Source: Bacteroidales bacterium
GTDB taxonomy: Bacteria; Bacteroidota; Bacteroidia; Bacteroidales; UBA10428
DNA: 64,000 nucleotides
Reading direction: 5' to 3'
Assembly (NCBI GenBank): GCA_016934395.1
Contig: JAFGSZ010000013.1
Span: forward strand, 124,001 to 188,000
Under the pieces are notes generated by a model. It was not told where the DNA came from. It saw only the letters and a program-made list of their open reading frames with translations, and searched no databases. Below, one piece after another: positions 48,251-49,180 of this stretch (positions within the stretch are counted from its first letter, which is position 1; each line of letters opens with the position of its first letter). The position numbers were made by a program, and so were the translations under genes.

Positions 48251-48682
48251 TTATGAAATTTTAATTTCTCTTGCCGGCTTTACTTTTGCTTCTTCCTTTT
48301 TAGGAACGATTACATTCAGGATACCGTCTTTATGTGTGGCTTTAATTTTATCATAATCTGTATCCTCTGGCAATATAAATGAACGACTGAATTTACTGTA
48401 GCTGAATTCTCTCCGCATTACTTTTTCATCAGAATTTTCAACATTGTTTTCTTTTTCCGAAGAAATAGTAAGCACATCGTTTTCGACATTCACCTTAAAA
48501 TCGTTCTTTCCTAATCCGGGGGCTGCCACTTCAATTTGATATTCATTATTATTTTCTTTCACATTTACAGCGGGTACACTGTAATTTTCCTGATAATTAA
48601 ACCTTGGAAGGAATTCATTATTACTAAAGAATTCATCCATTAAATTTGGCCAGCTATTGCGGGTTCTAAGAATTGGTAACAT
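48251..48682 (-). CDS. hsp20: Small heat-shock protein (Hsp20/alpha-crystallin family)
   Basis: A 143-residue chaperone. An alpha-crystallin domain (about 38-135) contains EYQIEVAAPGLGKNDFKVNV, DVLTISSEKE and the family GILNVIVPKK stretch. The C-terminus has the IxI anchor (REIKIS) used in oligomer assembly. It holds unfolding proteins in an ATP-independent way. A real Shine-Dalgarno sequence (AGGAGG) precedes the start, rare in this phylum. The upstream region has a sigma54-type promoter and two NtrC-like palindromes, which suggests control by an enhancer-binding protein rather than ordinary heat-shock elements. A strong terminator follows. Confidence 0.93.
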   Translation of the reverse strand: MLPILRTRNSWPNLMDEFFSNNEFLPRFNYQENYSVPAVNVKENNNEYQIEVAAPGLGKNDFKVNVENDVLTISSEKENNVENSDEKVMRREFSYSKFSRSFILPEDTDYDKIKATHKDGILNVIVPKKEEAKVKPAREIKIS

Positions 48683-48696: not shown

Positions 48697-48739
48697 ATAA
48701 TTTAGTTCAACATAAATTTTTATTTTATGCCGAGAATAG

Positions 48740-48756
48740 GGCAACAAATGTTCCAA
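48740..48756 (-). promoter_or_regulatory. Sigma54-type -24/-12 promoter of hsp20
   Basis: On the minus strand TTGGAACATTTGTTGCC has GG and GC exactly 10 bp apart and a full TTGC at -12. This matches the consensus TGGCACGN4TTGC except for C-to-A and G-to-A changes in the -24 half. The expected start of transcription is about 48730, 47 bp before the ATG. Confidence 0.6.
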
Positions 48757-48762
48757 TTGAAT

Positions 48763-48785
48763 AATTGCGTCATATTGGCGCAATT
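48763..48785. promoter_or_regulatory. NtrC-like palindrome, promoter-proximal copy
   Basis: AATTGCG-N9-CGCAATT is an exact inverted repeat. Its inner 17 bp read, on the minus strand, TGCGCCA-ATA-TGACGCA, one half-site base away from TGCGCCA-N3-TGGCGCA. The centre lies about 44 bp upstream of the predicted start of transcription. Confidence 0.55.
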
Positions 48786-48795
48786 ACCTTAAAGG

Positions 48796-48816
48796 GATGT
48801 GCCATCATGGCGCATC
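48796..48816. promoter_or_regulatory. NtrC-like palindrome, distal copy
   Basis: On the minus strand GATGCGCCA-TGA-TGGCACATC, a 21-bp inverted repeat with one mismatch; its inner 17 bp share TGCGCCA-N3-TGRCRCA with the other copy. Centres of the two copies are 32 bp apart, about three helical turns. Confidence 0.55.
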
Positions 48817-48874: not shown

Positions 48875-49180
48875 TTATTCGGGTTTCGGCTTTTTAAGAT
48901 ATGTTGATAGGGCATCTACATATTTTTGGAAAGCTTGAATTCCGGTTTTGGTTAATTTGCATGTAGTTAAGGGATAATTTTTACGAAAGGATTTACTAAT
49001 CTCTATATATCCGGCCTCCTGAAGTTTTTTAAGCTGAACGCTAATATTCCCTTTAGTAGCGCCGGTTTTTTCAAGGAGAAAATTAAATTCAGCAGATTCT
49101 ACTCCAACTAATAAAGAAACTATAGATAATCGGAGTTGTGAATGCAACAAAGGATCAAGATCTTTAAAGGATATACTCAT
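48875..49180 (-). CDS. Winged-helix transcriptional regulator (MarR/ArsR-like)
   Basis: A 101-residue single-domain regulator. The core LLHSQLRLSIVSLLVGVESA leads into a helix-turn-helix (FNFLLEKTGATKGNISVQLK) and a wing with KLQEAGYIEISKSF. This pattern matches the small winged-helix family HTH_34-like, close to MarR/ArsR. It follows a membrane protein gene 40 bp upstream on the same strand; such pairs are common in Bacteroidota, and the regulator may control its own operon. Confidence 0.83.
   Translation of the reverse strand: MSISFKDLDPLLHSQLRLSIVSLLVGVESAEFNFLLEKTGATKGNISVQLKKLQEAGYIEISKSFRKNYPLTTCKLTKTGIQAFQKYVDALSTYLKKPKPE

Follow-up and report, generated by a model that had tools for sequence, protein, structure and literature searches.

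Sigma54 promoter with two phased palindromes upstream of a Bacteroidales hsp20 gene, and its likely place in a chaperone regulon of the order

The window analysed here is a stretch of 64,000 nucleotides that forms part of contig C131 of a 4.53-Mb draft genome. It carries a gene for a small heat-shock protein (hsp20) whose nearest named relatives, by protein similarity, are found in Bacteroidales metagenome genomes. A preliminary description of the DNA had placed a sigma54-type promoter and two NtrC-like palindromes upstream of this gene, which raises the question of how hsp20 is transcribed and which protein acts on the palindromes. In the 5′ to 3′ direction toward hsp20, the elements follow each other as distal palindrome, proximal palindrome, −24/−12 element, 5′ leader and start codon. 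The features of the locus are the following:

48251..48682, minus strand: hsp20, small heat-shock protein of 143 aa (ORF call; PF00011, E=1.3e-26)
48705..48713, minus strand: 5′-leader element ATGTTGAAC (ATGTNNAAC), 31 nt before the hsp20 start codon
48756-48740, minus strand: −24/−12 sigma54 promoter TTGGAACATTTGTTGCC (sequence; conservation in hsp20 upstream regions)
48785-48763, centre 48774: proximal putative activator site AATTGCGCCA-ATA-TGACGCAATT, upstream of the −24/−12 element
48817-48795, centre 48806: distal putative activator site GGATGCGCCA-TGA-TGGCACATCC, upstream of the proximal site
48875..49180, minus strand: winged-helix protein (HTH_34; PF13601, E=2.3e-27), the upstream neighbour of hsp20

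The −24/−12 element is present on the minus strand as first described. The GG-N10-GC spacing of TTGGAACATTTGTTGCC is exact, its −24 part (TTGGAAC) is slightly off-consensus and its position predicts a transcription start near 48729. When both strands of the window are scanned for TTGGNA-N6-TTGC the single match is the hsp20 promoter. The genome encodes RpoN (contig C21; PF04552, E=5.5e-54) with all three sigma54 domains. No RpoH was found above the cut-off in the window's genome, in which four sigma70-like matches scored 155-167 bits relative to a cut-off of 323. These four sigma70-family proteins of ~291-300 aa (C146, C134, C44, C79), scored against the RpoH model, represent several primary-like sigma paralogues.

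The two palindromes are also borne out by the sequence, with arms of 10 bp that are longer than originally noted. The proximal site (AATTGCGYCA-N3-TGRCGCAATT) has its GNCA-N3-TGNC core at 48769-48779 and its centre 20 bp upstream of the promoter GG, while the distal site (GGATGYGCCA-N3-TGGCRCATCC) has its core at 48801-48811 and its centre 52 bp upstream of GG. The centres are thus 32 bp apart and lie at about −45 and −77 from the predicted start. There are 12 GNCA-N3-TGNC matches in the window, among which the hsp20 pair is the only one less than 115 bp apart. The 4.53-Mb genome has just two exact copies of the extended form TGYGYCA-N3-TGRCRCA, both of them at hsp20, and one more place matches if one mismatch is accepted; the reversed pattern, used as control, has 6 matches per strand at ≤1 mismatch. 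The unit conserved in relatives is shorter (TGHCA-N3-TGDCA), and position −4 varies between A, C and T in 100 relatives' sites (G at −5 was a search requirement). NtrC itself was considered and rejected as the binding protein: its site is TGCACCA-N3-TGGTGCA, with A at −5 and C at −4, and the two palindromes of the window carry G at −5.

Upstream regions of hsp20 were gathered by protein similarity from named genomes and 60 relatives, independently of the motifs, and those more than 75% identical were removed to leave 83 non-redundant Bacteroidota regions that were compared with dinucleotide shuffles. A good −24/−12 element is found in the expected interval of 71 regions (2.8 in shuffles), at least one GNCA-N3-TGNC site in 61 (2.3 in shuffles) and at least two sites in 35 (0.05 in shuffles), the independence of these counts being overstated by the shared ancestry of the relatives. 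The sites are mostly centred at −20 and −51/−52 relative to GG, and otherwise near −30, −41, −62, −73, −83 and −93. A period scan of their positions peaks at 10.5 bp (n=94 sites, R=0.79, nR2=59), which is the pattern expected of proteins bound to one face of the DNA and fixed relative to RNA polymerase. The proximal site had been regarded as nearer to the predicted start than normal enhancers are; −20 from GG turns out to be its conserved, normal position, found also at grpE, htpG and clpB. Some hsp20 copies have no site, as in genomes G041 and G050 that encode a single activator.

Three more hsp20 genes are present in the window's genome. Those on C14 (L013) and C139 (L014) are preceded by the sigma54-like elements TGGCATATTCTTTGAA and TGGCATCCGGTTTGTT, with palindromes that are degenerate or absent, and the fourth hsp20 of the genome (L015) has none. 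The leader element ATGTNNAAC, often ATGTYTAACYAAAA, lies about 30-35 nt ahead of start codons. It was counted in 36 of 87 hsp20 upstream regions (0.7 in shuffles). Many groES leaders also show it, but there is no copy among 79 grpE/htpG/clpB leaders. The window copy would code for M-L-N-stop.

The arrangement is not restricted to hsp20. Most of 30 relatives, and the window's genome as well, have one site at −20/−21 ahead of the −24/−12 element of grpE. A blind search of 149 genomes of the order for a composite pattern (TGGYA-N6-TTGA with GNCA-N3-TGNC centred at −20/−21 from GG) gave 112 matches, compared to 4 for the reversed pattern. The first downstream gene was read for 107 of the 112 matches, the products were clustered and Pfam was run on cluster representatives. 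A chaperone or protease gene lies downstream in 100 of the 107 cases: 43 grpE, 27 htpG, 14 hsp20, 9 ClpB/ClpC, 3 zinc metallopeptidase, 2 FtsH, 1 Lon and 1 DnaK. The other genes include one thioredoxin and one OsmC. Among the few non-chaperone matches is also a site ahead of a baeRF family 3 release-factor-like gene (L283, in G031).

The matches in the window's genome are grpE (C32) and clpB (C143, 30 nt before the start), with no htpG match seen there in this search. The hsp20 gene of the window was missed because its −12 reads TTGCC. An earlier, stricter pattern with TGGNAY found nothing in this genome, because grpE reads TGGCAA and hsp20 ends in TTGCC; grpE and clpB were recovered after relaxation of the pattern. 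The −24/−12 element is also conserved at groES (TGGCATAAAATATGCT in the window's genome), where most sites are degenerate or a long way upstream and there is usually none at −20. As in the sigma54 regulon of Flavobacterium psychrophilum, grpE, groES and clpB of the window's genome all have the −24/−12 element. The groES upstream regions of relatives (e.g., L179, L174) include a terminator-like hairpin, GTGTCAGTATGTCATA...CTGACACTTTTTT, with a GNCA-N3-TGNC core that is at −31 from the groES promoter in two genomes; one sequence may serve there both as terminator and as activator site. Taken over the order, the distribution of promoters and sites points to hsp20 as a member of an order-wide sigma54 heat-shock regulon rather than to a control peculiar to hsp20.

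Which activator would bind the sites? A search of the gene neighbourhood found no activator gene adjoining hsp20. The window's genome encodes six Fis-type sigma54 activators, five with a receiver domain and one without:

C126:49437-50663: sensorless AAA+-Fis activator of 409 aa (AAA+, lid, Fis HTH), upstream of lptE-secG-groES

The gene of the sensorless protein is ~3 kb upstream of groES in the window's genome and at least eight others, and is itself mostly without the site. A single copy of the protein (54-80% identity) was found in 57 of 60 relatives; of the 45 good-quality genomes, 44 have it. Its AAA+ core keeps the GSFTGA and Walker motifs and has structure matches to NtrC-family proteins, FleQ, ZraR and PspF. 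The recognition helix of the HTH is nearly invariant. An insert of ~110 residues, part of which is a conserved helix-like stretch (EREILYKILFDM...DLKKLV), separates AAA+ from HTH. Three genomes encode no sigma54 activator other than this protein, and all of them bear sites: two perfect ones precede hsp20 in G024, which also has sites ahead of grpE, while G031 has a single one at grpE and G041 a single one at clpB. In one genome (G056, 96% complete) a site precedes htpG and no match to the sensorless activator was obtained at E<1e-90. The proposal that sigma54 and an NtrC-family activator run hsp20 is supported by the conserved elements, the presence of rpoN and the six Fis-type activators of the genome; its likening of the sites to those of NtrC falls with the G at −5. 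The protein that binds them is probably the sensorless AAA+-Fis activator encoded upstream of groES, rather than NtrC.

Another sigma54 activator of ~390 aa, with a receiver and AAA+ domain, is widespread (L095-L113, e.g., G001:C1:249825-250325). It is found near grpE in ~10 relatives and is missing from the window's genome. This “type B” protein has a receiver and no HTH, and therefore cannot be the site-binding protein. A RAYT-like transposase ORF (L007:339-962) adjoins one of the response-regulator activators of the window's genome.

It is unlikely that the same promoter and sites respond instead to a two-component signal through one of the five response-regulator activators (L002, L004-L007). 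These proteins do have Fis HTH domains, and three are encoded on the same contig, but G024, G031 and G041 bear sites in the presence of the sensorless activator alone, the type that is also the only one found here to be nearly universal. The genes next after L004, L005, L006 and L007 are kinase-like, and L004-L006 have transporter genes on either side, which suggests other targets. A repressor, either the winged-helix neighbour or a CIRCE-like repressor, whose operators overlap the promoter is considerably less probable still. The closeness of the proximal site to the promoter (centre about −45) and the winged-helix gene upstream are what such a model has in its favour. However, unlinked genes are preceded by site and promoter together, at a constant helical phase, the sites are upstream of −24/−12 and not over it, and sigma54 promoters require an activator anyway. 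The CIRCE/HrcA element (TTAGCACTC-N9-GAGTGCTAA) has no match in the window within 3 mismatches. The repressor that had been considered a real alternative is not needed, and the winged-helix neighbour has, as far as the evidence goes, no part in the mechanism.

The inverted repeats could in principle act as RNA or DNA hairpins (a terminator, a thermometer or a REP element), a reading suggested by the 10-bp arms and 3-nt loop of the window copy and by a RAYT-like transposase ORF elsewhere in the contig. We consider this highly improbable: the repeats are upstream of the predicted start, half-sites vary independently, and over ~100 sites the pairing at position ±4 and in the outer arms hardly exceeds, if at all, what base composition predicts. 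No Rfam match was obtained in the window, and a REP element was rejected as the genome has just two extended copies. Practically no weight can be given to a chance likeness to sigma54 elements, with hsp20 expressed from a housekeeping TAnnTTTG promoter, since no TAnnTTTG sequence is found in the 192-bp hsp20 upstream region and conservation is well above shuffles; nothing in the data speaks in its favour.

The reading that we favour, and consider likely from the comparative sequence evidence, is that hsp20 is controlled by the −24/−12 promoter and the two phased palindromes as part of a chaperone/protease regulon of the order, with the sensorless protein as the most likely activator. Sigma54 RNA polymerase would transcribe hsp20 from the −24/−12 element, and opening of the promoter would need an AAA+ activator on two GNCA-N3-TGNC palindromes located on the same helix face and in phase with the promoter. 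The regulon would be run either by one site at −20/−21 from GG or by a pair of sites placed on a 10.5-bp ladder. Bound to both palindromes, the sensorless activator would oligomerise beside the closed complex and open it with ATP, and would thus activate rather than repress. A centre at −45 would leave little DNA for looping, which agrees with the strict helical phasing. As the protein has no sensor domain, the signal, presumably heat or misfolded proteins, must come from a partner or from the activator's own level. Titration by chaperones, as for sigma32, is a guess consistent with the place of the gene beside groESL.

The arrangement can be compared to three systems of E. coli. At glnA, NtrC binds Fis-type palindromes with a CA-N3-TG core, a pair of which is 32 bp apart, and activates a sigma54 promoter. 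The hsp20 region shares the paired CA-N3-TG-core palindromes 32 bp apart and the sigma54 promoter. It differs by G instead of A at −5, by sites centred at −45/−77 that are locked to the helical turn whereas those of glnA are beyond −100, and by a candidate activator without receiver domain. PspF of the psp operon resembles this candidate in having AAA+ and Fis HTH domains and no N-terminal sensor (AAA+ match, E about 1e-61), but the candidate has the ~110-residue AAA+-HTH insert and heat-shock targets, and no PspA-like partner was seen. The small heat-shock gene ibpB also has a sigma54 promoter, which is its second promoter and accessory to sigma32, in contrast to the window's genome in which no RpoH was found.

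Control of Bacteroidota chaperones by sigma54 has already been reported (PMC9723704, PMC12316311), so that a sigma54 promoter at a small heat-shock gene, first described as unusual, is less so and would be expected. In F. psychrophilum, of the same phylum, −24/−12 starts were mapped for groESL, lon, dnaK, grpE-dnaJ, htpG and clpB (PMC9723704). The available part of that paper presents this SM4 protein-quality-control regulon, with sigma54 promoters before chaperones, without hsp20 in the table and without activator sites, and names three activator candidates with none singled out. A 2025 computation found sigma54 promoters enriched before genes of IbpA/Hsp20, GroEL, GrpE, DnaK, HtpG and proteases in Bacteroidota (PMC12316311); in its accessible text the regulons rest on promoter matrices, and neither an enhancer motif nor its phasing nor an activator is described. 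No report of the enhancer motif, of its phasing and short range or of the candidate activator was found in the open literature, a search that covered few subscription papers.

Bacteroidota are a dominant gut and environmental phylum, and the present analysis addresses how they induce heat-shock genes without sigma32. It brings, from comparative sequence alone, an enhancer code and a testable candidate activator. A wider proposal, which we put forward tentatively as possible rather than probable, is that the heat-shock response of Bacteroidales, perhaps of Bacteroidota, has its master activator in the sensorless protein whose gene adjoins groESL, that this protein replaces sigma32 and acts at short range from helically phased sites, and that it is controlled by chaperone titration via its conserved AAA+-HTH segment. 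If the mechanism is correct, the sigma54 enhancer would adjoin its promoter at a constant helical phase, in contrast to the textbook enhancers that act from a distance by looping, and a sigma54 system would serve proteostasis rather than nitrogen metabolism or motility.
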